Assembly: GCF_000312385.1 (NCBI RefSeq)
Contig: NZ_HE997626.1
Location: 2,454,405-2,518,404 of the forward strand
Length of the DNA stretch: 64,000 nt
Direction of reading: 5' to 3'
From: Tsukamurella sp. 1534
Lineage (GTDB): Bacteria > Actinomycetota > Actinomycetes > Mycobacteriales > Mycobacteriaceae
Positions 1-16,788 of the stretch are shown in pieces. Position 1 is the stretch's first letter; every line of letters begins with the position of its first letter. A program made the translations under genes and the position numbers. The notes under the pieces were generated by a model that was not told the DNA's origin, made no database searches, and worked only from the letters and a program-made list of their open reading frames with translations.

Positions 1-2
1 CC

Positions 3-911
3 GACGCGGATCGCGGACAGCTGGTGCGGGATTGCGTCGACGCGGTGCTGCACGAGGCAGGAGGAACCCCGCCCGCAGTGGTGCTCACCGCCGCACAGGC
101 GCCCGGGAGCATGTGCCCGGGAAACCTGGACGAGTACGGAGATCCGGCCGCCCGTCTGAGTCCTGCGCTCGACGGGCTGCCCGAGACGCTCGTGAGCCAC
201 GCCTGTGCGTCCGGCGGGCTCGCCATCGCAGTGGGGGCGTCACTCGTCGAATCCGGTGACGCCCGGCGTGTTCTGGTGCTCGGGGCGATGCGACCGCGAT
301 TCATCGAGTCCGCCGCCTTCGACAGTGCGGGGGCACTGTCCGCCGCTCCCTTCTGCCGTCCGTTCGACGCCGCCGCGGACGGCACCGCGTTGGGCGGATT
401 CACCGGTGCCATGCTGCTCGGCGCGGGCGACAGTGGCCCGGAGATCGCGGGTACGGGCGTTCGTACCCTCGGCAGCGGTGCGCAGTCCGACCGCGACAGC
501 CAGGCCGAGTGCATGCGCGCAGCCATCGACCACTCGGGCGGGTTCCCGGACTTCGTTGCCGCCCACGCCACGGGGACGGTACACGGAGACAGGGTCGAGC
601 TGGATGCCGTGTCGGAGGTGGCCGCCGCCGCGCAAACGATCCTCCCGGTCACGTCCTGCAAGGGGGCGCTGGGGCATTCCGTGCACGCCGCCGGCCTCGC
701 ATCCGCGATGTTCGCGCTCGAGGCGCTCGCTTCGGGCACGCTCCCCGGAACCGCCCATTGCACCGATCCACTCGTCGCTGAGCACGCCGCAGTACTCACC
801 GAGAACGAAGAGGTGCTCGACTCCCCGGCGACGACCGCTCTGGTGAACGCCTTCGGGTTCGGTGGCAGCTCCTGCTCACTGCTCTTCCACTGGGATCGTT
901 CGCCCGAGTGA
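3..911 (+). CDS. beta-ketoacyl-ACP synthase (5' end outside window)
   Basis: Thiolase-fold ketosynthase, which would perform decarboxylative Claisen condensation on an acyl carrier protein. The frame is open to the left edge, so the N-terminal third is missing; the GTG at 24 is only the first in-window start codon. Active-site residues visible are the nucleophilic Cys in SHACASGG, His in AHATGT, and Lys and His in CKGALGHS, giving the Cys-His-His triad of elongating KAS I/II rather than the Cys-His-Asn of KAS III. The C-terminal NAFGFGGSS loop is also typical. It is followed after 28 bases by an ACP gene, so it heads a biosynthetic operon. The substrate cannot be read from sequence. It could be a type II PKS-like or a stand-alone fatty-acid-type KS. 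Confidence 0.85.
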   Translation, partial: DADRGQLVRDCVDAVLHEAGGTPPAVVLTAAQAPGSMCPGNLDEYGDPAARLSPALDGLPETLVSHACASGGLAIAVGASLVESGDARRVLVLGAMRPRFIESAAFDSAGALSAAPFCRPFDAAADGTALGGFTGAMLLGAGDSGPEIAGTGVRTLGSGAQSDRDSQAECMRAAIDHSGGFPDFVAAHATGTVHGDRVELDAVSEVAAAAQTILPVTSCKGALGHSVHAAGLASAMFALEALASGTLPGTAHCTDPLVAEHAAVLTENEEVLDSPATTALVNAFGFGGSSCSLLFHWDRSPE

Positions 912-939
912 CCCCATCCCCGTATCGAAAGGAAACACC

Positions 940-1227
940 ATGTCCGACACGCACATCACCACCTCCGACATCACGGCGGACGCGGAGGCGTTCCGTCGCC
1001 TGGTGGCCGAAGAGGTCGCGCGGATCAATGACCTCGACGCCGACGAGGTCTCCGTGAGCCCCGACGATTCGCTGGTCGACGATCTCGGACTCGACTCGCT
1101 CGGCATCCTCGAACTGGTGCTCCAAGTGCAGAACCGCTACGCGGTCGAGCTGCCGGAGGACAGGGTGCGCGAGGCGGAGAGCGTCGCGCAGTTCTGGGCA
1201 CTCCTGCGTGAGCGCGCGGCGGCCTGA
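940..1227 (+). CDS. acyl carrier protein
   Basis: A 95-residue acyl carrier protein. Ser53 in the LDSLG motif is the expected phosphopantetheine attachment site, flanked by the usual acidic helix II (DDLGLDSLGILEL). The ATG at 940 is chosen because a purine-rich AAGGAAA lies 6-12 bases upstream and the upstream in-frame GTG at 862 would overlap the ketosynthase. Its N-terminus is somewhat longer than that of a housekeeping AcpP. It ends 2 bases before the next start, so translation is coupled. It probably carries the substrate for the adjacent ketosynthase, acyltransferase-like and MaoC proteins. Confidence 0.9.
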   Translation: MSDTHITTSDITADAEAFRRLVAEEVARINDLDADEVSVSPDDSLVDDLGLDSLGILELVLQVQNRYAVELPEDRVREAESVAQFWALLRERAAA

Positions 1228-1229
1228 CC

Positions 1230-1817
1230 GTGCCGATGGTGAACCCGGTACTCGACACCGCATCCGCGGCCGCCGCCGTACGCGTGCTGGTCGCGAACCC
1301 GGGGTCCCTGGTGACCTCTCGCGGCCCGCAATGGGTCGAGGAGGACGCCGCCCGCGCCATGCTGGCGGACGCCGCCATCTCATTCCTGGTGGACGGAGAC
1401 GCGGCCGTGGTCCTCGCCGAGCGTATGCAGACCCCGGGGCACTTCCGGTTGTCCGTCGCGGTCGCGGACGACGACTCGATCACCGCGGCGGTCCTCGACG
1501 TCGCGCTGCGGGATGTGTCGGCCTTTCTCGTCGCCTCCGTCGACACGGTGCGGATCGACCTCGTGTTCGGGGTCTACAACGAGCGGTTCGTCGAATGGGC
1601 GCTGGCGGCCGAGGGGGTGCGTTTCGAGGGGGTGCTCTCGGACGCGTTCTACGCCGGCGGCCGGCACTGGGAGGGCGTGATCGCCGCGATCACGGGCGAC
1701 GACCTGGACGAGTTCCGCTCCGGCGGTGCCGCATCCCGCGAACGCCGGATCGTCGACCGGTTACGCGACCGGATCAGAGAGGACCTGCGGCGGCACGGAG
1801 CGGAGGTGCCGGGGTGA
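1230..1817 (+). CDS. GNAT-like acyltransferase-fold protein
   Basis: A 195-residue protein whose middle (about residues 75-150: beta strands, then VYNERFVEWALAAEGVRFEG) resembles the C-terminal half of GNAT N-acetyltransferases. The pyrophosphate-binding Q/RxxGxG/A loop is not obvious, so catalytic competence is uncertain. GTG start directly behind the ACP gene; its stop overlaps the next start. A second GNAT-like gene follows, so the pair may act as a heterodimer or on successive acyl intermediates. That is inference from position only; the fold assignment itself is tentative. Confidence 0.6.
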   Translation: MPMVNPVLDTASAAAAVRVLVANPGSLVTSRGPQWVEEDAARAMLADAAISFLVDGDAAVVLAERMQTPGHFRLSVAVADDDSITAAVLDVALRDVSAFLVASVDTVRIDLVFGVYNERFVEWALAAEGVRFEGVLSDAFYAGGRHWEGVIAAITGDDLDEFRSGGAASRERRIVDRLRDRIREDLRRHGAEVPG

Positions 1818-2407
1818 TCCGCGGAATGTGGACGGAGCTGACAGTGGGAACGGACCGAAACACGCACCGGCTCAACGGTGCCGATGAATTCGTCCGCGCC
1901 GTCCACGACGCCGATGCGCGCACACTGTTCGCGGGCTCCGGCGTCGAGCAGTTCACCTGGACCGACGAACAGGCGGACGGGCATGTCGGGGGCGCGATCC
2001 TGCGGCGCGACGATCCGGACCGCCGCGTGATCGGCGTGTACGACCTCGCGTGGGCCGGCGCCGGAAGGTTCGGGCTCGGTGTGGTGCTCGCCGATCCGGA
2101 GGATTGGGGGAGGGGGCTCGGCATGGACGCGATGACAGCGGTGATGCGACACGTCTTCTACCACGAGGGCGCACGGACTTTCGCAATGGCGGCCGGCGTG
2201 CACAACTTCAACACCGCCCTGATCCTGGCGTCGGGGAAGATCCGGCCGGAGGCGTTGTGCGCGGCATCCATCGTGGACCGCGGAAGGCTCACTCTTCTCG
2301 CTCTGGGAGCGATGAATCGCACGGAGTTCGAGGAGGCGGGGTACGGCCCGCCGCCGCTGAGCGATCGCCTGTGGCGCGATGCGCGCGCCGCGGCGGGGTC
2401 CCGATGA
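1814..2407 (+). CDS. GNAT family N-acetyltransferase
   Basis: A 197-residue GNAT-fold protein. The acyl-CoA binding motif A is visible as EDWGRGLGMDAM with a following helix, and the region HNFNTALILASGKIR matches the motif B Asn/loop. It probably transfers an acyl group from CoA or the neighbouring ACP to an amine or hydroxyl; the acceptor is unknown. The GTG at 1814 gives a GTGA overlap with the previous stop; ATG 1826 is an in-frame alternative. The gene ends with an ATGA overlap into the MaoC gene, so this is a tightly coupled operon. Confidence 0.75.
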   Translation: MIRGMWTELTVGTDRNTHRLNGADEFVRAVHDADARTLFAGSGVEQFTWTDEQADGHVGGAILRRDDPDRRVIGVYDLAWAGAGRFGLGVVLADPEDWGRGLGMDAMTAVMRHVFYHEGARTFAMAAGVHNFNTALILASGKIRPEALCAASIVDRGRLTLLALGAMNRTEFEEAGYGPPPLSDRLWRDARAAAGSR

Positions 2408-2847
2408 CCGCCCCGGAGTCCGTCACCGTGACCCAGCCGATGATCGATGCGTTCGCCGAGATCACCGGCGATCGGCAATGGATCCACACCGACGTCGACC
2501 GCGCGGCTCGCGCCGCGGCCGGCGGCACCGTCGCGCACGGCATGCTCGTGGCGTCGCTGATCCCGCCCCTGGCCGCGGATTCGATCGACGACTTCGCCGA
2601 GGTCCGGGCCTTCACCGGTAAGCACCCGGAGGTCGAGGTGATCAACCTCGGCGTCGACAGGTTGTCCTTCGCACACCCCGTGCGGCCCGGGACCGTCCTG
2701 ACCGCGGAAGCGCGACCGCGCCGTGTCGAGGAGCGGGGGTACGAGGTGGACGTGGCCGTCGACGTCACGGTGTGGCTGGTAGGCGAGCGGCGACGGATCG
2801 CTGCGGCCGGCACGCTCCGGCTCCGGTACCGGGCGGCCGGCGCATGA
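2404..2847 (+). CDS. MaoC-like hot-dog dehydratase
   Basis: A 147-residue single hot-dog domain of the MaoC/(R)-specific enoyl hydratase family. The hydratase-2 motif is present as ITGDRQWIHTD, keeping the catalytic Asp and His although the usual GDxNPxH is varied to GDRQWIH, followed by GGTVAHGM. Members hydrate or dehydrate 2-enoyl/3-hydroxyacyl thioesters on CoA or ACP. Start and stop both overlap neighbours by 4 bases (ATGA). In this operon it could dehydrate the beta-hydroxy product of the ketosynthase step, but no ketoreductase is visible in the window. Confidence 0.85.
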   Translation: MTAPESVTVTQPMIDAFAEITGDRQWIHTDVDRAARAAAGGTVAHGMLVASLIPPLAADSIDDFAEVRAFTGKHPEVEVINLGVDRLSFAHPVRPGTVLTAEARPRRVEERGYEVDVAVDVTVWLVGERRRIAAAGTLRLRYRAAGA

Positions 2848-4442
2848 GCACCGTGTGGGACCGCTGTGCCGAATTGCTCGGCTCGTCGCGACTGTTCGCG
2901 GGAGTGGCCGGCGACGATCCCGGGCTGCTGGACGCGGCGGTCCTCGCCGGCGCTCCGGTCCTGCCGTGTCGCGACCAGCGCACCGCCGCGTTCGCCGCCG
3001 CGGGCGCTTCGATGGTGTCCGGAGCGCCGGCCGTGCTCTGTACGCACAGTGGCCCGGACCTGCTCAACGCGCTCGTCGGCGTCTCCGAGGCGTACAGCGC
3101 CGGCGTCCCGATGGTGGTGGTCACGGCGACCCTCGGCCACGCCGAAGTGGGCCGCGGCGCCTTTCAGCACTTCCCTGTCCAGGACCTCGGTCCAGGTCTT
3201 TTCCACTGGGTGCACCGGGCTGTCGACGAGGCCGATCTCTACTGGGCGCTGGGCCGTGCCGATCGCTTGGCACGCGCGGCGAGCGGTCCCGTTCACGTCG
3301 TTGTCGACGGCGCAACCGGGGCGACCGGTGCAGCGGTGGCGCCGCCGCCCCAGCCGGAGGAGCAGATCCCGCCCGCGGTCGCGCCGGAGACAGCAGCGCA
3401 CATCGCCGACACGCTCGCCGACGCGGAGCGGCCGGTGCTCGTGCTGGGGGGTGGTGCGCGCGGCGGGGACCCGGACGATCTGACTCGGATCGCCGACGGC
3501 ACCGGTGCGGTCGTGCTCACCACCGCCTCCGGCCGCGGCGTCTTCCCCGAGTCGCACCCCCGCTTCGCCGGGCTCCTGGGGCTCTACCTCGCTCCTGAAT
3601 CACGCACCGCGCTCGAGGCCGCGGACGAGATCCTCGTCGTCGGAAGCAGACTCGAGGAGACCGCGCGGATGGGGTGGACACCGGGCCCCGCTGCGCGGAT
3701 CACACAGGTCGACACCGACCCGCGGATGATCGGGCGGGCTCACCCGGCGACCGCCGTCGTCGCTGACGCCCCAGCCCTCGTCCGCGCGGTGGCGCGAGCC
3801 GTCCCCGGGGCGTCGCCGGACCGCCATACCTGGGATGGGTTGCAGCCCCACTCCACTCATGCCGACGAGCGGAGCAGCGTGGCGCTCACCGCTCCGGCCT
3901 TCTTCCGGGTACTCGGGACGCGGCTGGCGGATTCGGACGTGGAGGTGCTCGCGCAGGAGAACGGTCTCGCCGATCTGTGGGGCTACTACGCGCCCGTGTT
4001 CCGGCTGCCGCGTGGTGTGCGTCCCCTGGTTCCGGGCGAGCAGACCGCGCTCGGTTTCGGCCTCGGCGCGGGGCTGGGTGCTGCGATGACGGGGCGCAAG
4101 GTCTTGGCCGTCGGCGGTGACGGGGCGTTCGGCATGAACGTCGCGACACTGTCGACGGCGATCGAGAACCGTGCGACAATCGCGTTCGTCGAGCTGATCG
4201 ACGGGGGATTCGGCTGGCCGTCGACGACTCGGGCCTGCCGAGACCGACTGGTGGATTTCCGGGTGCCGAGCGGTGCGGCAGCGCTGGCGGCGGCGACGGG
4301 AACGCCGGTGTTGCACGTGACGATCGCGGAGGAGCTGCCGGACGCCATCGAGAACATCCTGGGGGAGACCGGTCCCGCCCTACTGTGCGTCCACCTCGAT
4401 GCCCGGCGGACGTTTCCCCCGCCGAGTACGTGGCCGTCATGA
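2844..4442 (+). CDS. thiamine diphosphate-dependent enzyme, acetolactate-synthase-like
   Basis: A 532-residue three-domain ThDP enzyme: PYR domain (about 1-170), central domain (about 180-330) and PP domain (about 350-525). The PP domain holds the GDG...N metal/diphosphate motif near residue 423 (GGDGAFGMN), though the motif ends in DGG instead of NN. The PYR strand reads CRDQRTAA where acetolactate synthases have RHEQxA. The Glu that protonates the thiamine aminopyrimidine therefore aligns with Gln45. Family members decarboxylate 2-oxo acids and form C-C bonds. It is the last gene of the coupled operon and precedes a two-component system by 27 bases. The substrate is unknown. Confidence 0.8.
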   Translation: MSTVWDRCAELLGSSRLFAGVAGDDPGLLDAAVLAGAPVLPCRDQRTAAFAAAGASMVSGAPAVLCTHSGPDLLNALVGVSEAYSAGVPMVVVTATLGHAEVGRGAFQHFPVQDLGPGLFHWVHRAVDEADLYWALGRADRLARAASGPVHVVVDGATGATGAAVAPPPQPEEQIPPAVAPETAAHIADTLADAERPVLVLGGGARGGDPDDLTRIADGTGAVVLTTASGRGVFPESHPRFAGLLGLYLAPESRTALEAADEILVVGSRLEETARMGWTPGPAARITQVDTDPRMIGRAHPATAVVADAPALVRAVARAVPGASPDRHTWDGLQPHSTHADERSSVALTAPAFFRVLGTRLADSDVEVLAQENGLADLWGYYAPVFRLPRGVRPLVPGEQTALGFGLGAGLGAAMTGRKVLAVGGDGAFGMNVATLSTAIENRATIAFVELIDGGFGWPSTTRACRDRLVDFRVPSGAAALAAATGTPVLHVTIAEELPDAIENILGETGPALLCVHLDARRTFPPPSTWPS

Positions 4443-4469
4443 CCAGGCGGCTGCCGACAGGGGGAACGC

Positions 4470-5735
4470 GTGAGTGTTGTGCATCCGCGGCACCGGGTGA
4501 TGAGCACTGCGGTGGGAAGGGCGATCATGCGCAGTGACGTCGGCCAGGCCGCCCTGACGCCGGTATTCGCGGCGTTCTGCTCGGTGGCGCTGGCCGCCGT
4601 TCAGCACGCCATGGGCGTCGACATGCCGTTCCTGCGGATTCCGGAGCGGCTGTCGGCGGCTCTGTTCGTGCTCGCCGCGATGGTCGTGGTGTCAGCTCTA
4701 CGAAACAGTCACCCGGAGGAGGCCTTCCTCGGGTCCGCGGCGCTCATGGCGGTGCTCGTCTTCGTCACCGGAGTCCCCGAATTCTGCGCCACCCCCATCT
4801 GGTGGCTCGCCATCGTCAACCTGGCGTCGCAGGTGCGTGGCCGCAGACTGTTGGTGCTGGCGCTGATCGGCGTGGCCGTCGGCATCGCGGTCGGCGCCTC
4901 GATGCCGGGCGACGCGCCGTCGGGACTCACGCTGAACGTGGCCGCGAACACGATCGTGATGTTCGGAGTGTTCCTGCTGATCGGGATCACCATCGCGCGA
5001 GGGCGCCAAGTGGCCGACCACAGCGTTCGGGCCCTGCGCTCCGCCCAGGACGAGTACGAGGAGCGGCTCGCCCGTTCGATTGAGGACGAGCGCCGGGAGA
5101 TGGCCCGAGAACTGCATGATGTCGCCGCGTTCCACCTGACCGGCATGCTCGTGCAGGCGCGAGCGGCGGAGGCCGTCTACGACGCCGACCGCGATCGCGC
5201 ACGAGACCTTCTCTCGGGGGCGATCGCGCAGGGCCAGCGCTCGCTCGACGGTCTGCGGCAGATCGTCGAAGTCCTGCGCTACGCAGAGGATCCTCACCCG
5301 CAGCCCACCATCTGTGCGATTCCGGCGCTGGTGGAGCAGGTGGCGCCGTCGTTCCCCTCGGTCAGGCTGCATTTCGACGTCGACGAGTCGGCTCTGGAGG
5401 AGATCGACAGCGGCACGCACCTGACCGCGTACCGGATCGTTCAGGAATCGGTGGCGAACGCGCTCCGGCACGCGCCCGGGGAGACGGTCGACGTGCGAGT
5501 GTGGACCGCCGACGACGTGCGGATCGAGGTCCGTAACAGGGTGCCGCGGCAGCGGAAGTCGACCGAGCGGCGCGGGTTCGGTCTCGCGGGTATGCGCGAG
5601 CGGGCGAGCCTGCTCGGTGGCCGCGTAGTGGCCGGGTTCGACGACGGTGACTGGGTGGTGCGCGCACAACTTCCGCGGTTCGGTGGCGCGGCGGAGTGGT
5701 CGGGGGCTCCCCTGTCGCGGTCGGGGGCGTCGTGA
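4470..5735 (+). CDS. sensor histidine kinase, NarL/DesK type
   Basis: A 421-residue membrane histidine kinase. About five hydrophobic segments (roughly 26-50, 62-78, 86-108, 125-143, 156-175) replace a large extracellular sensor, so it may sense the membrane or a hydrophobic ligand. The HisKA_3 dimerisation motif ELHDVAAFHL carries the phospho-acceptor His216. The ATPase domain shows the N box (IVQESVANALRHAP) and a G box (GFGLAGMRERA). GTG start with GGGGGA 5 bases upstream; its stop overlaps the response-regulator start. It lies directly behind the biosynthetic operon and is its likely regulator, by position only. Confidence 0.9.
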   Translation: MSVVHPRHRVMSTAVGRAIMRSDVGQAALTPVFAAFCSVALAAVQHAMGVDMPFLRIPERLSAALFVLAAMVVVSALRNSHPEEAFLGSAALMAVLVFVTGVPEFCATPIWWLAIVNLASQVRGRRLLVLALIGVAVGIAVGASMPGDAPSGLTLNVAANTIVMFGVFLLIGITIARGRQVADHSVRALRSAQDEYEERLARSIEDERREMARELHDVAAFHLTGMLVQARAAEAVYDADRDRARDLLSGAIAQGQRSLDGLRQIVEVLRYAEDPHPQPTICAIPALVEQVAPSFPSVRLHFDVDESALEEIDSGTHLTAYRIVQESVANALRHAPGETVDVRVWTADDVRIEVRNRVPRQRKSTERRGFGLAGMRERASLLGGRVVAGFDDGDWVVRAQLPRFGGAAEWSGAPLSRSGAS

Positions 5736-6421
5736 CCGTGCGCAATCTGATCCGTGTGCTCATCGCCGACGATCAGCCGGTGGTGCGGCAGGGATTCGAG
5801 CTCTTCCTCTCCGCGGATCCGGGCATCACCGTGGTGGGGCACGCCCACAACGGTGTCGTCGCGGTCGAGGCTGCCACCAGGCTCCGCCCGGACGTCGTCC
5901 TGATGGATGTGCGGATGCCCATGCGCAGTGGGTTCTGGGCGTCCCGCGCGATCCTGTCCGAGCCGGACCCGCCGCGGGTGCTCATCGTGACCACATTCGC
6001 TCTGGACGAGTACCTGTTCGAGGCGCTCGACCTCGGTGCGTCGGGCTTCATCCTCAAGGACAGTGAGCCGAAGGAACTGGTAGCCGCGGTGCGCAACGTC
6101 GCCCGCGGTGGAGTCGCGGTCTCACCCAGGGTCGCGCCGCGGCTGGTCGCCGAGTTCGCTCGCCGCAAGCCGGGAAAGGGTTCCGCGGCGGTCCACGCGC
6201 CGGACCCCGGTCTGTCCGACCGCGAACTGCAGGTGCTCGGTCTACTGGTGCAGGGGATGTCGAACGACGAGATCGCTCAGTCGCTGCACCTCGAGGCCAG
6301 CACCGTCAAGAGCCATGTGGGCAACATATGCCGGAAGGTCGGGGTGAAGAACCGCGTCCAGGTGGTGGTGTGGGCCTATGAGACCGGGGTTGTCCACCAA
6401 CTGGACGCGGGACGGACCTAA
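5732..6421 (+). CDS. response regulator, NarL/LuxR family
   Basis: A 229-residue response regulator. The N-terminal receiver has the acidic pair D13/D14, phospho-acceptor D59 (LMDVRMP), a conserved Thr (IVTTFA) and Lys (ILKDS). The C-terminal LuxR helix-turn-helix is LSDRELQVLGLLVQG plus STVKSHVGNI. GTG 5732 overlaps the kinase stop (GTGA), so the pair is co-translated. It is the cognate partner of the upstream kinase. Its 3' end overlaps the convergent DUF3107 gene by 4 bases. Confidence 0.92.
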   Translation: MTVRNLIRVLIADDQPVVRQGFELFLSADPGITVVGHAHNGVVAVEAATRLRPDVVLMDVRMPMRSGFWASRAILSEPDPPRVLIVTTFALDEYLFEALDLGASGFILKDSEPKELVAAVRNVARGGVAVSPRVAPRLVAEFARRKPGKGSAAVHAPDPGLSDRELQVLGLLVQGMSNDEIAQSLHLEASTVKSHVGNICRKVGVKNRVQVVVWAYETGVVHQLDAGRT

Positions 6422-6645
6422 CCCGCGGCGAAACCGACGGTGCGGCTGTCGGCGGTGCCGATCTCGACGTACGCCAGGCGCGTGAACGGGACGAGGTACT
6501 GCTTGCCCTTCTCGTCGTTCAGCTCGAGGATCTCGCTGCGGCCCGCGAGGGCCTCGGTGACGGCCTTGCGCACGTTCTCCGCCGAATCATTGCTCTGCAC
6601 CACGAGTTCGCGGTTCGAGTCCGCGATACCGATCTTGATCTCCAT
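6418..6645 (-). CDS. DUF3107 protein (TB9.4-like)
   Basis: A 75-residue actinobacterial DUF3107 protein, equivalent to M. tuberculosis Rv3208A (TB9.4). The sequence begins MEIKIGIADSNRELVV and has the beta-rich pattern of the family; the molecular function is unknown. It is probably leaderless: TAACCT lies at 6652-6657 (minus strand), 6 bases before the ATG. The nearby ferritin-like and DEAD-box genes occupy the same positions as in mycobacteria, which supports orthology. Confidence 0.85.
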   Translation of the reverse strand: MEIKIGIADSNRELVVQSNDSAENVRKAVTEALAGRSEILELNDEKGKQYLVPFTRLAYVEIGTADSRTVGFAAG

Positions 6646-11244: not shown

Positions 11245-12237
11245 GTGGCGGCACTCGCGCAGGTGGATCGGGAGAGCGACGTCTGGCCGGGAGAGTTCCT
11301 CTCGCTCCGCGGACGGCGCGTGTTCGCCCGGCACGTCGACGGTGCCGCGGCCACCACGGCGCCGCCCGACGGCAGGCCCACCGCGGTCATGATCCACGGC
11401 CTGGGCGGCTCGTCCATCAACTGGACCGACCTCGGGCAGGTGCTGGCCCCGTCGGTCGCGTCCTACGCCCTCGACCTGCCCGGATTCGGGCTGTCCGATC
11501 CTCCCGCGGACGGTGACTACGGCATCGAATCGTTCGCCGAGACGGTGGTCGCGTACCTGGAGACGGTGGTCGCGGTGCGCCGCCGGCCGGGCGGCGCACC
11601 GGGCGGCACGGCGAACGGTCCGGACGGGGTGCACCTGATCGGGAACTCGCTCGGCGGCGCCGTCGCCGTGCGGGTCGCGATGCTGCGCCCGGACCTGGTG
11701 CGCAGCCTCACCCTCATCTCGCCGGCGTTCCCCGACCTGCGTCCCCGCGTCCGCCGGCTGCAGTTCCTGCCGCTGTCCCTGGTGCGGATCCCCGGCGTCG
11801 GCCCCGCGGGGTTCCGGCTGATCGGCAGCGCGTATCCGGAGCGGCAGGTCGATTCCACGTTCCGCGAGATCCTGGTGGACCCGGAAGTGATGGGACCTGT
11901 GCGGCGGCGGCAGGCCGTCGATCAGGCGGCGGCGCGGGCGTCGATGGCGTGGGCGCCCGATGCGCTGGCGGCCAGCTTCAACGCGCTGGTGCGCAGCTGG
12001 GTCATGGACCTGGGGGCGTCGCACTGGGCCGCGGCGCGGGCGGTCTCGGTGCCCACCGCGGTGATCTGGGGAGCGCGTGACCTGCTGGTGAGCGTCGGCG
12101 TGGCGCCGAAGGTGGTGCGGCACATCCGGGGCAGCACGCTGACCGTGTTCGAGGGCGTGGGGCACGTGGCGCAGATGGAGCGCCCGGCCGAGACGGCGCG
12201 GATCGTGCGGGACCTGATCGAGATGGCGGATTCGTGA
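11245..12237 (+). CDS. alpha/beta hydrolase
   Basis: A 330-residue alpha/beta hydrolase. The oxyanion strand is HGLGGSSINW, the nucleophile elbow GNSLGG (Ser about 134), and the C-terminal His lies in GVGHVAQMERP. A cap region lies at about 165-260. There is no signal peptide, so it is cytoplasmic. GTG 11245 is chosen because the region upstream has shadow-like composition. It is divergent from the TetR gene and followed closely by the DUF3152 gene on the same strand. The substrate is unknown; esterase or C-C hydrolase activity is possible. Confidence 0.85.
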   Translation: MAALAQVDRESDVWPGEFLSLRGRRVFARHVDGAAATTAPPDGRPTAVMIHGLGGSSINWTDLGQVLAPSVASYALDLPGFGLSDPPADGDYGIESFAETVVAYLETVVAVRRRPGGAPGGTANGPDGVHLIGNSLGGAVAVRVAMLRPDLVRSLTLISPAFPDLRPRVRRLQFLPLSLVRIPGVGPAGFRLIGSAYPERQVDSTFREILVDPEVMGPVRRRQAVDQAAARASMAWAPDALAASFNALVRSWVMDLGASHWAAARAVSVPTAVIWGARDLLVSVGVAPKVVRHIRGSTLTVFEGVGHVAQMERPAETARIVRDLIEMADS

Positions 12238-12289
12238 TACTGCGTGTCGATTCGGTCGTCCCGGGGCCGGACATGGGATGGTTGGCGAC

Positions 12290-13291
12290 GTGAGTAGTCC
12301 TTCGAGCCCGAGGCGCCCCCGACCTGACGGGCGTGCGCCGCTGCGGGCCGAGTGGGACCCGATCAACCCGTCCGGCGGCGCGTCGGGGGACGGGCGGAAC
12401 CGGCCGCCCCGCGAGCGCAAGTACCCGAAACAGAGTGCGCTGACCCGGATCCTGAACACCTACGGGTGGCGCGCCTACGCGGTGCCGGTGCTCGCCGTGC
12501 TCACGATCCTGGCGCTGGTGTTCACGTTCTGGGGGAACCCGTTCGGCGCGGACAAGGCGTCGGACACCGTCACGGAGAACCCGCTCTCGCGCAACCCGAA
12601 CCCGGAGAAGACCATCGTCGGCGCGCGACGAGCGGCCGGCCCGGTGCCGCAGGCCGGGATGCTGCCCAACGGCGGCCCGTTCACCGAGAAGGGACAGGGG
12701 ATCTGGCACGTCGTGCCCGGCGCCACCGGACAGGTGGGCGAAGGTAAGCAGCACGTGTACACCTACCAGGTGGCCGTCGAGGACGGCGTGGACATGGGCG
12801 CGCTGGGCGGCGATCAGACCTTCGCGACGATGATCGACCGGACCCTCGGCGACCCGCGGAGCTGGATCCACGATCCGGCGATCGGCTTCCGCCGCGTGGA
12901 CGGCGACACCAAGCCGGACTTCACCATCTCATTGTCCTCCCCGATCACCACCCGCTCGGCGTGCGGCTATCAGATCCAGCTGGAGTCGTCCTGCTACAAC
13001 GGCGAGTTCGGCCGCGTGGTGATCAACCTGGCCCGCTGGTCGCGTGGCGCGAACGCCTTCGAGGGCGACCTCACCGGCTACCGGCAGTACGCCATCAACC
13101 ACGAGGTGGGGCACGCCATCGGCTACCCGCAGCACGTGCCGTGCCCGTCGAACGGCGGCCTGGCGCCGATCATGATGCAGCAGACCTTCGGCGTGAACAA
13201 CCGGGACATCTTCAACCTGGACAAGTCCGACGGGTTCGACAACGACCTGACGTGCCGGCCGAACGCGTGGGTGGCGCCGGTCCTGCGTTAG
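12290..13291 (+). CDS. DUF3152 zinc metalloprotease-like membrane protein
   Basis: A 333-residue protein similar to M. tuberculosis Rv3207c. A Pro/Arg-rich cytoplasmic tail (1-50) leads to one transmembrane helix (about 58-78, AVLTILALVFTFW) and an extracytoplasmic DUF3152 domain. The domain holds a zincin motif NHEVGHAIGYPQH, with His271, Glu272, His275 and a third His at 282. The third ligand is one residue later than in the metzincin HExxHxxGxxH. Two Cys pairs (CGY...SCY and VPCP...LTC) could form disulfides. GTG start. It sits between the hydrolase and moeZ. Confidence 0.85.
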   Translation: MSSPSSPRRPRPDGRAPLRAEWDPINPSGGASGDGRNRPPRERKYPKQSALTRILNTYGWRAYAVPVLAVLTILALVFTFWGNPFGADKASDTVTENPLSRNPNPEKTIVGARRAAGPVPQAGMLPNGGPFTEKGQGIWHVVPGATGQVGEGKQHVYTYQVAVEDGVDMGALGGDQTFATMIDRTLGDPRSWIHDPAIGFRRVDGDTKPDFTISLSSPITTRSACGYQIQLESSCYNGEFGRVVINLARWSRGANAFEGDLTGYRQYAINHEVGHAIGYPQHVPCPSNGGLAPIMMQQTFGVNNRDIFNLDKSDGFDNDLTCRPNAWVAPVLR

Positions 13292-13333
13292 GGGCCCGGG
13301 AATGAGTGGGGCGGCGCCGTCGTTCCACCTCAC

Positions 13334-14524
13334 GTGAGTACGTTGCCACCGCTCGTCGAACCCGCCGCCGATCTGACCCGCGACGAGGTCGCGCGGTACT
13401 CGCGGCACCTGATCATCCCGGAGATGGGCGTCGAGGGGCAGAAGCGCCTGAAGAACGCCAAGGTCCTGGTCATCGGCGCCGGCGGTCTCGGCAGCCCGGC
13501 GTTGCTCTACCTGGCCGCCGCCGGCGTGGGCACCATCGGCATCGTCGAGTTCGACGAGGTGGACGCCTCGAACCTGCAGCGCCAGGTGATCCACGGCGTG
13601 TCCGACCTGGGCCGCCCGAAGGGGGAGAGCGCACGGGACTCGATCGCCGAGATCAACCCGCTGGTCACCGTCAACCTGCACCCGGAGCGGCTGGAGCCGG
13701 AGAACGCGGTGCAGTTGTTCGAGCAGTACGACCTGATCCTCGACGGCACCGACAACTTCGCCACCCGCTACCTGGTCAACGACGCTGCGGTGCTCGCGCA
13801 CAAGCCCTACGTCTGGGGCTCGATCTTCCGGTTCGAGGGACAGGCGTCCGTGTTCTGGGAGGACGCGCCCGACGGGCCGGACGGCGAGAAGCAGGGCCTG
13901 AACTACCGCGATCTGTACCCCGTGGCGCCGCCGCCCGGGATGGTTCCCTCGTGCGCGGAGGGCGGCGTCCTGGGCATCCTGTGCGCCTCGATCGGGTCGA
14001 TCATGGGCACCGAGGCGGTCAAGCTGATCACCGGTATCGGCGAGAGCCTCCTGGGCCGCCTCATGGTGTACGACGCCCTGGAGATGAGCTACCGCACCAT
14101 CCGGATCCGCAAGGACCCGGAGTCGCCGGAGGTCACGGAGCTCATCGATTACGAGGAGTTCTGCGGTGTCGTGTCCGACGAGGCCGAGCGCGCCGCCGCG
14201 GGCAGCACCATCACCCCGGCGGAGCTCGCCGGCCTGGGCGCCGCGGGCGTCGATTACGAGTTGGTGGACGTGCGCGAGCCCGTCGAGTGGGAGATCGTGC
14301 ACCTGGACGGCGCGAAGCTGGTCCCCAAGTCCGCGTTCGAATCCGGCGAGGGGCTGGGGCAGGTCTCGCCGGACAAGAAGCTGGTCCTGTACTGCAAGAC
14401 GGGGATCCGCTCCGCCGAGGTGCTCGCCGCCGTGCAGGGCGCGGGCTACCGCGACGCCGTGCACCTGCAGGGCGGCATCAACGCCTATGCGCGGCAGGTG
14501 GATCCGTCGCTGCCCGTCTACTGA
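13334..14524 (+). CDS. moeZ: MoeZ, E1-like adenylyltransferase/sulfurtransferase
   Basis: A 396-residue fusion of a ThiF/MoeB adenylating domain (about 1-270; GAGGLGSPALLYLAAAGVG nucleotide loop, Arg finger in SNLQRQV, Cys in CAEGGVLGILC) and a C-terminal rhodanese (about 285-396; active Cys in YCKTGIRSAE). It activates the C-terminal Gly-Gly of small sulfur carriers (MoaD/CysO/ThiS-like) and loads sulfur for molybdopterin, cysteine or other thio-cofactor synthesis. The CxxC zinc pairs of E. coli MoeB are absent, as expected for MoeZ. GTG start. The stop abuts the convergent acyl-CoA synthetase with no gap. Confidence 0.93.
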   Translation: MSTLPPLVEPAADLTRDEVARYSRHLIIPEMGVEGQKRLKNAKVLVIGAGGLGSPALLYLAAAGVGTIGIVEFDEVDASNLQRQVIHGVSDLGRPKGESARDSIAEINPLVTVNLHPERLEPENAVQLFEQYDLILDGTDNFATRYLVNDAAVLAHKPYVWGSIFRFEGQASVFWEDAPDGPDGEKQGLNYRDLYPVAPPPGMVPSCAEGGVLGILCASIGSIMGTEAVKLITGIGESLLGRLMVYDALEMSYRTIRIRKDPESPEVTELIDYEEFCGVVSDEAERAAAGSTITPAELAGLGAAGVDYELVDVREPVEWEIVHLDGAKLVPKSAFESGEGLGQVSPDKKLVLYCKTGIRSAEVLAAVQGAGYRDAVHLQGGINAYARQVDPSLPVY

Positions 14525-16051
14525 TCACACTTCGATCAGCCGCTTCACCAGCTTCCCCGTGGGCGTCCGGGGCAGGGAGTCCACGAACCGCACCGCGCGG
14601 GGGAGCTTGTAGCGGGCCAGGTCGCGGCCCCCGTACGCGATGAGCTCCTGCGCGAGCTCGTCCGACGGGGCCGTCCCCGGCGCGAGTTGCACGCAGGCCA
14701 GGGCGGTCTCGCCGAGTTCGTCGTCGGGGACGCCGATGACGGCGACGTCGGCGACTGCGGGGTGCATGATCAGGGCGCTCTCCGCCTCCTGCGGGTACAC
14801 GTTTACCCCGCCGGAGATGATCACGAAGTCTTTGCGGTCCGTGAGGTAGAGGTACCCGTCCTCGTCGAGGTAGCCCACGTCGCCGGTCGTCGCCCAGTTG
14901 GCGTGGTCGGGATGCTGTGCGGCGCTCGTCTTCTCGGGTGCGTTGTGGTACCGGAACGGCATCTCGTCGCGCTCGAAGTAGATCGTGCCCACCTCGCCGG
15001 CGGGCAGCTCGGCACCGTCGTCCCCGCAGATCCGGGCGATGCCCACCTGGGCCCGACCCACGGAGCCGGGGCGCTCCAGCGCCTCCTGCGGGCCGATGAA
15101 CGTGGCGCCCGCACCCTCGGTGGAGCCGTAGTACTCGTGGATGACGGGGCCCCACCAGTCGATCATCGACCGCTTGACCTCGGCGGGGCACGGGGCGGCC
15201 GCGTGCACCGCGACGCGCAGGCTGCTCGTGTCGTAGTGCGCGCGGGACCGCGCCGGCAGCTTCAGCATCCGGACGAACATCGTGGGCACCCACTGACTGT
15301 GCGTGACGCGGTACTTCTCGATGAGTGCGAGGGCCTCCTCGGCGTCGAACCGGTGCATCATGATCACGGTGCCGCCCACCGACATGGTGACGCCGCAGAA
15401 CCGCAGTGGCGCAGCGTGGTACAGCGGCGCCGGGGAGAGGTACACGGTGTCCTCGTCCATGCCGTACGCGGGGGAGAAGATGGCGGTGTAGGCGTCGGGC
15501 ACCTCGTCCACCTGCCCTTCGGGCAGCGGGATCCGGATCCCCTTGGGGCGCCCCGTGGTCCCGGACGAGTACAGCATGTCGGTTCCGCGCGGCTGGTCCG
15601 CCAGGCGCGTCGACGGCGCAGCCGCGAGCACGTCGTCGTACGCGGCGAAGCCGTCGATCGGGCCGCCCCAGGCGATCGCGTGCCCGGGCGCGGCGAGCGC
15701 GGCGATCTCGCGGGCTCGCGAGACCGCCTCCGCCACATCGGCGCCCGCGAACACCGCCTTCGCCGCGCAGTCGTCGAGGATGTAGTTCACCTCGCCGGGC
15801 GTGAGGTGGAAGTTCACGGCCGCCACGTACAACCCGCTGCGGATCGCCGCGAAGTAGGCGACGAAGACCCGCAGGTCGTTGCCGGCCACGACCGCGATCG
15901 TGTCGCCGCGGCGCAGCCCCAGCCCCGCGAGGTGGTGCGCCAGGCGGGTCGACTGCTCGTCCAGCCGCGCGTAGGTCAGGATCTCGCCCGTCGAGGCGTC
16001 GATGGCGGCGGGTTTGCCGGGGGTCAGGTCAGCGAATGCACCGGGATACAA
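14525..16051 (-). CDS. acyl-CoA synthetase (AMP-forming)
   Basis: A 508-residue ANL-superfamily adenylating enzyme. Core motifs: A3 YSSGTTGRPKG, A5 YYGSTEGAG, A7 TGDVGYLDEDGYL, A8 DRKDFVIISGGVNVYP, and the catalytic Lys in PRTPTGKLVKR near the C-terminus. It resembles mycobacterial FadD acid-CoA ligases such as the FadD4 type; the chain length is not readable. The start is a TTG with GCGGAGG 5 bases upstream. It is convergent with moeZ. The flanking genes show no beta-oxidation partners, so its pathway is open. Confidence 0.9.
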   Translation of the reverse strand: MYPGAFADLTPGKPAAIDASTGEILTYARLDEQSTRLAHHLAGLGLRRGDTIAVVAGNDLRVFVAYFAAIRSGLYVAAVNFHLTPGEVNYILDDCAAKAVFAGADVAEAVSRAREIAALAAPGHAIAWGGPIDGFAAYDDVLAAAPSTRLADQPRGTDMLYSSGTTGRPKGIRIPLPEGQVDEVPDAYTAIFSPAYGMDEDTVYLSPAPLYHAAPLRFCGVTMSVGGTVIMMHRFDAEEALALIEKYRVTHSQWVPTMFVRMLKLPARSRAHYDTSSLRVAVHAAAPCPAEVKRSMIDWWGPVIHEYYGSTEGAGATFIGPQEALERPGSVGRAQVGIARICGDDGAELPAGEVGTIYFERDEMPFRYHNAPEKTSAAQHPDHANWATTGDVGYLDEDGYLYLTDRKDFVIISGGVNVYPQEAESALIMHPAVADVAVIGVPDDELGETALACVQLAPGTAPSDELAQELIAYGGRDLARYKLPRAVRFVDSLPRTPTGKLVKRLIEV

Positions 16052-16152
16052 GAGAACCTCCGCTTACTTGTCGGTCCGGTCACCGTATCGCCGCGGCGCG
16101 GATCCGCGAGCGGTATCGAAGATCTGGAACCGGCTCTCCACGAATCCGTCAT

Positions 16153-16788
16153 CTATCCCGGCGTCGGCCCCGCATCGTCGAACCGGGACAGCCAGGAGGC
16201 GTAGTCGTTCAGCAGCGCGAGGAGCGGGAGCGCGTCGACGGTGCCCACGGGCTCGCCCGCGAGGGCGGCCCGGATTCCCGGAAGGCGGGATTCGATCTGC
16301 TGCCGTGTGGACAACTCGTGGTGGCTGTCGCCGCGCTGTTCGCCCAGCACGATCCGCCGCGAGTGCACCGCGCGGAACGTGGACAACAGCTCCGCGAACT
16401 CCTCGTGGGTGAGCGCGGGAAGGTGCACCGAGAAGCTCACCACCGGCCCGGGGTCGGCGTCGTCGGCCTCCGCGGACTCCTCCAGCCAGTCGGCGTACTC
16501 CTGGCTCAGGTCGTCGAGCGCCTCCTCGTCGTCGAACGAGAGCCTCCGCCCGGCGACCGCGGCCTGCAGCCCCGCGACGAGGGCCCGCACCGTCTCCGGA
16601 TCCGAGGACGCCGCGTACCACCGGTGCGCCTCGTGCGGCACGACGGCGCGGCCGGGCCGCCCGGCGGTGAGCCGCTCGCGCACCTCCTCGAACTCGCGGA
16701 CGCTCAGGTCGGGGAACTGGACGGAGACGGTCACGACGGGCGCGTGCCGCCCGGCGGGGGACGGGGAGTTCGACTGCACGGTCTCCAT
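16153..16788 (-). CDS. uncharacterised protein with internal duplication
   Basis: A 211-residue acidic cytoplasmic protein I do not recognise. It consists of two similar halves, about 17-110 and 113-208. Each begins with PVV(T/S)xSVxxP and a helix (REFEEVRERL; EEFAELLSTF), has a basic strand with H/R and V residues, and ends with a YA(D/S)WL segment. An Ala/Glu/Asp linker joins the halves. No enzyme motif or membrane segment is seen. The ATG at 16788 lies 29 bases from the divergent nitroreductase start. The upstream in-frame start would overlap that gene. Confidence 0.65.
   Translation of the reverse strand: METVQSNSPSPAGRHAPVVTVSVQFPDLSVREFEEVRERLTAGRPGRAVVPHEAHRWYAASSDPETVRALVAGLQAAVAGRRLSFDDEEALDDLSQEYADWLEESAEADDADPGPVVSFSVHLPALTHEEFAELLSTFRAVHSRRIVLGEQRGDSHHELSTRQQIESRLPGIRAALAGEPVGTVDALPLLALLNDYASWLSRFDDAGPTPG

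Follow-up and report, generated by a model that had tools for sequence, protein, structure and literature searches.

The operon at the left end of a Tsukamurella sp. 1534 chromosomal window as the probable right half of a nocavionin-type lipolanthine cluster

What is assembled by the compact operon found at the left end of a stretch of the Tsukamurella sp. 1534 chromosome? The window, i.e. the whole stretch of 64,000 nucleotides that was analysed (G000:C1:2454405-2518404), opens with genes for a ketosynthase (KS), an acyl carrier protein (ACP), two proteins attributed to the GCN5-related N-acetyltransferase (GNAT) fold (GNAT1 and GNAT2), a MaoC-fold dehydratase and a thiamine diphosphate (ThDP)-dependent enzyme, followed by a sensor histidine kinase (HK) and a response regulator (RR). 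An earlier note, made on the window, had recognised no pathway matching this gene set and had held it to be the best candidate for an undescribed system. The DNA to the left was read in L009 (G000:C1:2439000-2458999), in which window position 1 is L009 15406 (window position = L009 position minus 15405); other genomes (G) and loci (L) are named by our own labels where needed.

The operon is very probably the right half of a nocavionin-type lipolanthine cluster of about 18 kb, inserted in the Tsukamurella chromosome. The window splits this cluster, and its left half, about 12 kb long, lies outside the window on the same contig, where ten cluster genes precede the KS gene: seven are on the operon strand and three are divergent, the latter coding for an arginine-methyltransferase-like (PRMT-like) protein, an ABC ATPase and a permease (Table 1). 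The seven genes encode a short precursor peptide, a LanD-type decarboxylase, a class III LanKC synthetase, a short-chain dehydrogenase/reductase (SDR), an aldehyde-dehydrogenase-like protein (ALDH), a familyless protein (orf158) and an AMP ligase. LanD is related to the CypD structure 6jdd (1.5e-15), and LanKC matches NF038151 (4.5e-156) and the solved LanKC 8sao (9e-47), with its kinase catalytic residues retained. Furthermore, the genes of LanD, LanKC, SDR, ALDH, orf158, AMP ligase and KS abut or overlap on one strand without a break at the window edge. The cluster is assigned to the lipolanthines because a precursor with the SxxSxxC motif, LanD, LanKC, dissociated polyketide synthase/fatty acid synthase (PKS/FAS) genes (KS, ACP, MaoC and SDR) and GNAT proteins occur together; in this family, the acyltransferase expected to join acyl-ACP to the peptide would be a GNAT. 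The operon thus runs leftward into precursor, LanD and LanKC genes, and the complete set is found in five other genomes, so that the claim of an unmatched pathway is not supported, nor is that of an undescribed system: lipolanthines are a known antibiotic family, and what is new is their occurrence in the genus Tsukamurella.

Inside the window, all the genes and junctions listed in the earlier note were recovered, and its description of a compact operon for acyl-chain building on a carrier holds. The lack of a ketoreductase, also mentioned there, is true inside the window but is an edge effect, the SDR gene being located 3.0-3.8 kb leftward. The KS itself is truncated only by the window edge, its first 106 bases (35 codons and one base) falling to the left. 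In alignments, KS residues Cys104, His224 and His261 are invariant across six clusters and the Ser of the ACP DSLG motif is kept in 6/6 sequences. The gap between the ThDP and HK genes is 27 bases. The proposed gene identities were upheld, with less certainty for GNAT1, for which no match was obtained in Pfam or NCBIfam. A profile comparison of GNAT1 with GNAT2 (hhalign) gave an E value of 0.002, but a probability of just 13.7%, and its AlphaFold2 model is modest (mean predicted local distance difference test score, pLDDT, of 66). Among the 50 PDB neighbours of the model listed by Foldseek, the majority are acetyltransferases, with a best E value of 0.013, none below 0.001, probabilities up to 1.00 and template modelling scores mainly of 0.3-0.5. 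A GNAT fold of GNAT1 is supported by the profile comparison and by the model, not proven. GNAT2 was assigned by Pfam; its relatives adjoin LanKC in other clusters, and it is a candidate N-acyltransferase.

The distribution of the gene set was followed with GNAT2. In 301 genomes of the family, five had a match at E<=1e-3 (four strong, own genome included), and a search of 150 Nocardia-genus genomes gave four (three strong, one of them already known from the family search). The 13 genes from the precursor to the ThDP enzyme are in identical order in all six strong genomes, i.e. our own and 5/5 others, and the Ser-x2-Ser-x2-Cys motif with C-terminal Cys is present in the precursors of 6/6 clusters. 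The six-gene order from KS to ThDP enzyme, whose co-occurrence elsewhere the earlier note had asked about, is thus seen again in five other genomes, and given this order the operon is more than a chance assembly. The five include Tsukamurella sp. TY48 and Nocardia sp. CDC159, which were the two confirmed among 63 candidate stretches in a LanD profile scan of genome contigs, as well as G173 and G404. The latter belongs to the same genus as CDC159 and has one strong LanD match and a weak one of CoaBC size. N. terpenica IFM 0706 is a nocavionin producer (PMC7441235). If G404 is this strain, as we infer, the same genes are already largely assigned to a known product, which the earlier note had named as evidence against a new system. 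Two weak GNAT2 matches, G005 (29%, E 9.5e-4) and G389 (8.6e-4; a short locus without cluster gene), were dropped.

The cluster behaves as an insertion. A strong LanD match occurs in 2/16 Tsukamurella genomes, and each of the 16 also has a weak match in a larger frame, which is probably CoaBC. One of the 16 had no match to the right-hand marker and was left outside the count; in nine of the 14 other Tsukamurella genomes with this marker, the two genes flanking the cluster lie 30-45 bases apart (aligned ends), which represents the empty site. The cluster is therefore an insertion of 18.2 kb, reaching from about L009 3634 as far as window 6417. Two of the 14 have about 0.9 kb between the flank genes, and in three the left gene was not found within the 1.5-kb flank. 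TY48 is among the nine empty-site genomes, its own cluster being located elsewhere in its genome. The insertion is not clearly set apart by its GC content.

Table 1. Genes of the cluster and its flanks. Start codons of genes left of the window are the analyst's choice; E values unless stated.
Feature	Coordinates	Strand	Assignment
Left flank gene, 412-aa protein, beta-propeller-like by eye	L009 2395-3633		
FtsX-like permease	L009 3698-6013	minus	FtsX 20.0 bits, under cut-off of 25.5
ABC ATPase	L009 6010-6738	minus	PF00005 9e-29
PRMT-like protein	L009 6749-7834	minus	profile of 5 homologues against PRMT structures, best 7.7e-20
Precursor peptide, 31 aa, MIDVTDINSLQAIESHSATSELLASVSSSGC, ending ASVSSSGC	L009 8256-8351	plus	C-terminal SxxSxxC
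LanD, HFCD flavoprotein, LanD-type decarboxylase	L009 8446-9072	plus	PF02441 5.4e-6, above cut-off
Class III LanKC synthetase, 854 aa	L009 9073-11637	plus	PF25816 RamC_N 5.5e-51, above cut-off
SDR	L009 11639-12391	plus	PF00106 7.8e-13
ALDH, 404 aa	L009 12391-13605	plus	PF00171 1.6e-13
orf158, 158 aa, familyless	L009 13602-14078	plus	41-64% in 5 clusters
AMP ligase, 416 aa	L009 14068-15318	plus	PF00501 5e-21
KS, 338 aa	window 1..911; whole gene L009 15300-16316	plus	PF02801 2.5e-18, PF00109 6.1e-7
ACP	window 940..1227 from ATG; longer GTG frame from 862	plus	PF00550 1.9e-10
GNAT1, probable acyltransferase-fold protein	window 1230..1817	plus	AlphaFold2 topology, Foldseek, hhalign to GNAT2
GNAT2, candidate acyl-ACP:peptide N-acyltransferase	window 1814..2407	plus	PF13302 3.1e-7
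MaoC-fold dehydratase	window 2404..2847	plus	PF01575 1.3e-17
ThDP-dependent enzyme, Gln45 at standard position 51	window 2844..4442	plus	PF00205/PF02776/PF02775 (three domains, best 6.2e-29)
HK	window 4470..5735	plus	PF07730 (HisKA_3), PF02518 (HATPase_c)
RR, NarL/LuxR type; right end of insertion	window 5732..6421	plus	PF00072 (Response_reg), PF00196 (GerE)
Right flank gene, 75-aa protein	window 6418-6645		

The following working of the cluster is proposed. The precursor would be made by the ribosome, Ser25 and Ser28 would be dehydrated by LanKC and Cys31 decarboxylated by LanD, and an avionin bridge would be closed in ASVSSSGC, as suggested by the precursor motif, the enzymes and the published nocaviogua structure. 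By analogy with nocaviogua, the leader would be cleaved before ASV, by a protease that is not seen in the cluster. The KS and ACP, with the SDR as ketoreductase and MaoC as dehydratase, would form a small dissociated PKS/FAS, and an unsaturated acyl chain would grow on its ACP. The starter would probably be a guanidino acid made by the ThDP enzyme, ALDH and AMP ligase, and may be methylated by the PRMT-like enzyme. GNAT2, perhaps with GNAT1, may couple acyl-ACP to the N-terminal Ala, by analogy with known lipolanthines; the ABC system may export the product, and the two-component system may regulate the pathway in some strains. The nocaviogua acyl chain is a bis-methylated guanidino C13 fatty acid with double bonds at 2, 4 and 8, nitrogen on C13 and no acyloin oxygen (PMC10435860). 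Carbon counting on this tail would be compatible with a five-carbon guanidino acyl starter, four extensions and one fully reduced cycle. Should the tail be the same as in nocaviogua A, a product of C40H64N11O10S+ (m/z 890.455) is predicted, a precise and testable mass.

Some parts of the cluster are variable. The HK/RR pair follows the ThDP gene at its 3' side in 3/6 clusters (our own, TY48 and G173), and the three clusters from the Nocardia genus have an ABC transporter instead, so that the two-component system can hardly be called dedicated, as had been claimed; in G308, a mere 33% HK match was found upstream and no RR match. The PRMT-like gene, a putative guanidine methyltransferase gene, is present in 5/6 clusters. 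The protein by itself has no Pfam match and was recognised through the profile of its homologues. A promoter and terminator scan of L009 7800-8500 was negative. The orf158 protein carries a conserved LPTEVLNADGCR stretch and has no known family or fold. It was considered as a missing half of the KS and rejected: the comparison with KS profiles gave a probability of 0.2, the model is poor (pLDDT 55) and no fold match was obtained. A cispentacin-type (Amc) set was also set aside, the AMP ligase, ACP and KS matching AmcH, AmcB and AmcF weakly and far under the cut-offs.

The least explained part of the cluster is the working of the tail-building enzymes. Gln45 of the ThDP enzyme aligns with the catalytic Glu of E. 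coli acetohydroxyacid synthase I and of BbmA, its nearest proteins in the PDB by profile; no paper on the role of the PDB neighbours BbmA and CsmA was found among the matches listed. Thirteen ThDP proteins were aligned, our own included: the GDG motif is kept in 13/13, and DQR is found in 12 and AHR, with His, in one (L109). Besides our own, the enzymes with DQR are encoded in L105 (13682-15439), L106 (11182-12903), L107, L108, L110 and L058. Glu occupies position 51 in 94% of the sequences of the ThDP decarboxylase superfamily; Val, found there in 3%, marks the glyoxylate carboligases (PMC3534367). The cluster enzyme has neither the Glu51 of ordinary members nor the Val51 of glyoxylate carboligase. 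In the ALDH, Cys210 is retained in 7/7 aligned sequences, and the ELGG-type stretch reads FGxGxNP. The ALDH profile gave E<=1e-20 in 27/394 genomes of the class and values below 1e-60 in eight, the loci of which were examined; G536 contributed to the profile and matches by construction. In these eight genomes, our own included, a KS lies in the stretch read in all eight and a ThDP enzyme with an AMP ligase in six. The AMP ligase and ALDH are fused in G536 (L058 12475-15063), G757 (L107 9332-12031) and G645 (L110 9258-12002). In the same L107, a Type I PKS with a terminal BioF/serine-palmitoyltransferase-like domain (12057-16544) lies close to the genes for the ThDP enzyme, the ligase-ALDH fusion and a fatty acid desaturase. 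ALDH relatives were also found in 13 records of Streptomyces plasmids, at <=41.5% identity over <=76% of the query, and two were examined. These NRPS (nonribosomal peptide synthetase)-type clusters (pADI95-16b and S. zaomyceticus NBC_00088; L105 and L106) likewise have ALDH, ThDP enzyme (DQR) and AMP ligase close together, with a KS in the first; they differ in that no lanthipeptide gene is annotated and NikS-like, ATP-grasp, cysteine-synthase-like and adenylation-domain genes are present instead. An 'enediyne antibiotic chromoprotein' gene lies nearby. L108 has the ALDH-ThDP-ligase set with a KS as well. The set, mostly with a KS, thus recurs across clusters for ribosomally synthesized and post-translationally modified peptides (RiPPs) and NRPS-type clusters.

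This recurrence bears on the question whether the operon could be a stand-alone KS-ACP-GNAT-GNAT-MaoC-ThDP pathway with its two-component system, yielding acyloin- or 2-oxo-acid-derived products and unrelated to the upstream lanthipeptide genes. Five loci in which no LanKC was detected (L105, L106, L107, L108 and L109) combine an ALDH, a ThDP enzyme and an AMP ligase, in most cases alongside a KS, so this part is able to work outside a peptide pathway, and Gln51 leaves some room for acyloin- or 2-oxo-acid-derived acyl units. However, the operon is continuous with the precursor, lanD and lanKC genes in 6/6 clusters, in one order, and the genes from LanD through KS are contiguous or overlapping where such a border would fall; an independent operon is thus highly improbable. 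Several observations do weigh against its assignment to a nocavionin-type lipolanthine cluster. LanKC scores 521.5 bits for an NCBI equivalog cut-off of 575, and LanD 65.7 bits for a CypD equivalog cut-off of 215; both were therefore placed by Pfam and by kinship to solved enzymes. The SDR has an unusual Tyr-Lys spacing, Y-x6-K in 6/6 homologues, the usual motif being YxxxK. The annotated cluster genes (Pfam, NCBIfam) include neither an enoyl reductase nor an acyltransferase (AT) nor a leader protease, yet one fully reduced cycle would require an enoyl reductase. The evidence for the identity of GNAT1 is weak, and that G404 is N. terpenica IFM 0706 is our own deduction. Finally, G173 has the full 13-gene set and no PRMT-like gene was found in it, apart from a 21-residue tblastn match; an ABC exporter gene occupies the place of that gene, and guanidine methylation is therefore not general.

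Within the lipolanthine assignment, two routes to the starter were weighed. According to one, which we consider plausible though short of probable, the ThDP enzyme would decarboxylate a 2-oxo acid (e.g. 6-guanidino-2-oxohexanoate) to an aldehyde, which the ALDH would convert to a thioester or acid to be loaded by the ligase, giving a 5-guanidinopentanoyl starter. The carbon count from nuclear magnetic resonance in the nocaviogua report agrees with it, C9-C13 being a five-carbon guanidino starter and the remainder four two-carbon units (PMC10435860). The ThDP enzyme also matches the NCBIfam 5-guanidino-2-oxopentanoate decarboxylase (3.3e-36, seventh match, 125 bits for a cut-off of 500), and the ALDH-ligase fusions in G536, G757 and G645 are in favour of it. 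However, the missing Glu51 should impair ordinary decarboxylase chemistry, and the 2-oxo acid of arginine would lead to a starter of four carbons, one carbon short; AruI (2-oxoarginine decarboxylase) was rejected as the identity of the enzyme, the match being the seventh, far under the cut-off, and the carbon counting a misfit. The absence from the ALDH of the ELGG-type glutamate, which we take to be needed for hydrolysis to the free acid, argues against such a hydrolysis. In the other route, which we regard as rather doubtful, an acid would be reduced to its aldehyde by the ligase together with the ALDH, in the manner of ligase/reductase pairs such as LuxE/LuxC, and carboligation of this aldehyde with a small donor by the Gln51 ThDP enzyme would lengthen the starter ahead of the KS. 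The same fusions in three genomes are compatible with it, the PDB neighbours of the ThDP enzyme include 2-hydroxyacyl-CoA lyases/synthases, and the glyoxylate carboligases, with Val instead of Glu51, are carboligases (PMC3534367). Against this, no donor is known, and an extra deoxygenation would be needed since the nocaviogua tail bears no acyloin oxygen. Both routes are weakened by two strong ALDH loci, in G505 (50 kb read) and G759 (20 kb read), where the ALDH stands with KS and ACP, and neither a ThDP enzyme nor a ligase was found.

A broader and decidedly tentative proposal, which we hold to be unlikely rather than likely, is that the Gln51 ThDP enzyme, the altered-site ALDH, the AMP ligase and the KS constitute a portable acyl-building module common to ribosomal lipopeptides and nonribosomal clusters; the ThDP enzyme, acting without the canonical Glu, would form a C-C bond with an aldehyde or an ACP- or ALDH-bound acyl group as substrate to give an unusual odd-numbered guanidino starter. 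If true, it would add a new way of starting polyketide chains, and one more family to the ThDP enzymes that dispense with Glu51. In any case, the reaction of the ThDP-ALDH-ligase-KS set would explain the start of the guanidino fatty tail. Among the matches listed in the open literature, subscription papers lying outside the search, no paper was found that deals with the ThDP enzyme of clusters like these.

More distant relatives were looked for in a class-wide sampling of 394 genomes, in which GNAT2 had 16 matches; six of the 15 loci outside our own genome were read. No further strong GNAT2 was detected in this sampling, the next best match having an E value of 1.5e-14. The weaker relatives adjoin LanKC in G642, G536, G456 and also G645, the last reached through its ALDH; the GNAT locus of G750 has no LanKC, and that of G517 just a LanKC match at E 0.001. 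The LanKC-GNAT clusters of G645 and G536 likewise contain a ThDP enzyme with DQR, a ligase fused to the ALDH and a KS, and G536 has two candidate precursors. Unlike the Tsukamurella cluster, no LanD homologue was detected in these two stretches (L110 and L058). The G645 cluster, with SDR, FabI-type enoyl reductase and Nudix genes in L110, looks like a lanthipeptide cluster with its own fatty acid synthase. In G642 (L057 9640-13122), GNAT and LanKC are accompanied by two candidate precursors (..SSVSYNCG and ..SSASWNCGG), with KS/ACP matches on both sides; LanD gave no match in the stretch covered. Beside its LanKC and GNAT, G456 has three candidate precursors that are nearly identical (MTVLDLQNLEAPEGEAEAMLS...DC; L060, about 559-900 on the minus strand).

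Among the titles and abstract openings listed in the open literature, a search covering no subscription papers, no Tsukamurella lipolanthine is described. A survey of Nocardia genomes counts lipolanthine among the RiPP cluster classes (PMC12153302). Before nocaviogua, the lipolanthines comprised 12 members in three groups, some of them potent antibacterials (PMC10435860), and it is this class that is extended here to Tsukamurella, where the cluster is present as an insertion of about 18 kb. The host is thus Tsukamurella rather than Nocardia, from which nocaviogua and nocavionin derive. All 13 genes are shared with the G404 cluster, which would be that of nocavionin if G404 is N. terpenica. In microvionin (MicKC-MicD) and goadvionin likewise, LanKC and LanD lead to aminovinylcysteine (AviCys)/avionin, and a long acyl chain is carried at the N-terminus. 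The goadvionin acyltransferase, reportedly a GNAT, is said to join the polyketide to the peptide. The closest likeness is with nocaviogua A/B from Nocardia sp. XZ19_369, for which the published structure gives the peptide Ala-Avi-Val-Ser-Avi-Asp/Asn-Gly-Avi (PMC10435860). Its core is A-S-V-S-S-N/D-G-C with avionin at 2, 5 and 8; the Tsukamurella core, ASVSSSGC, differs only at position 6 (Ser), and the bis-methylated guanidino tail of nocaviogua agrees with the presence of the PRMT-like gene.

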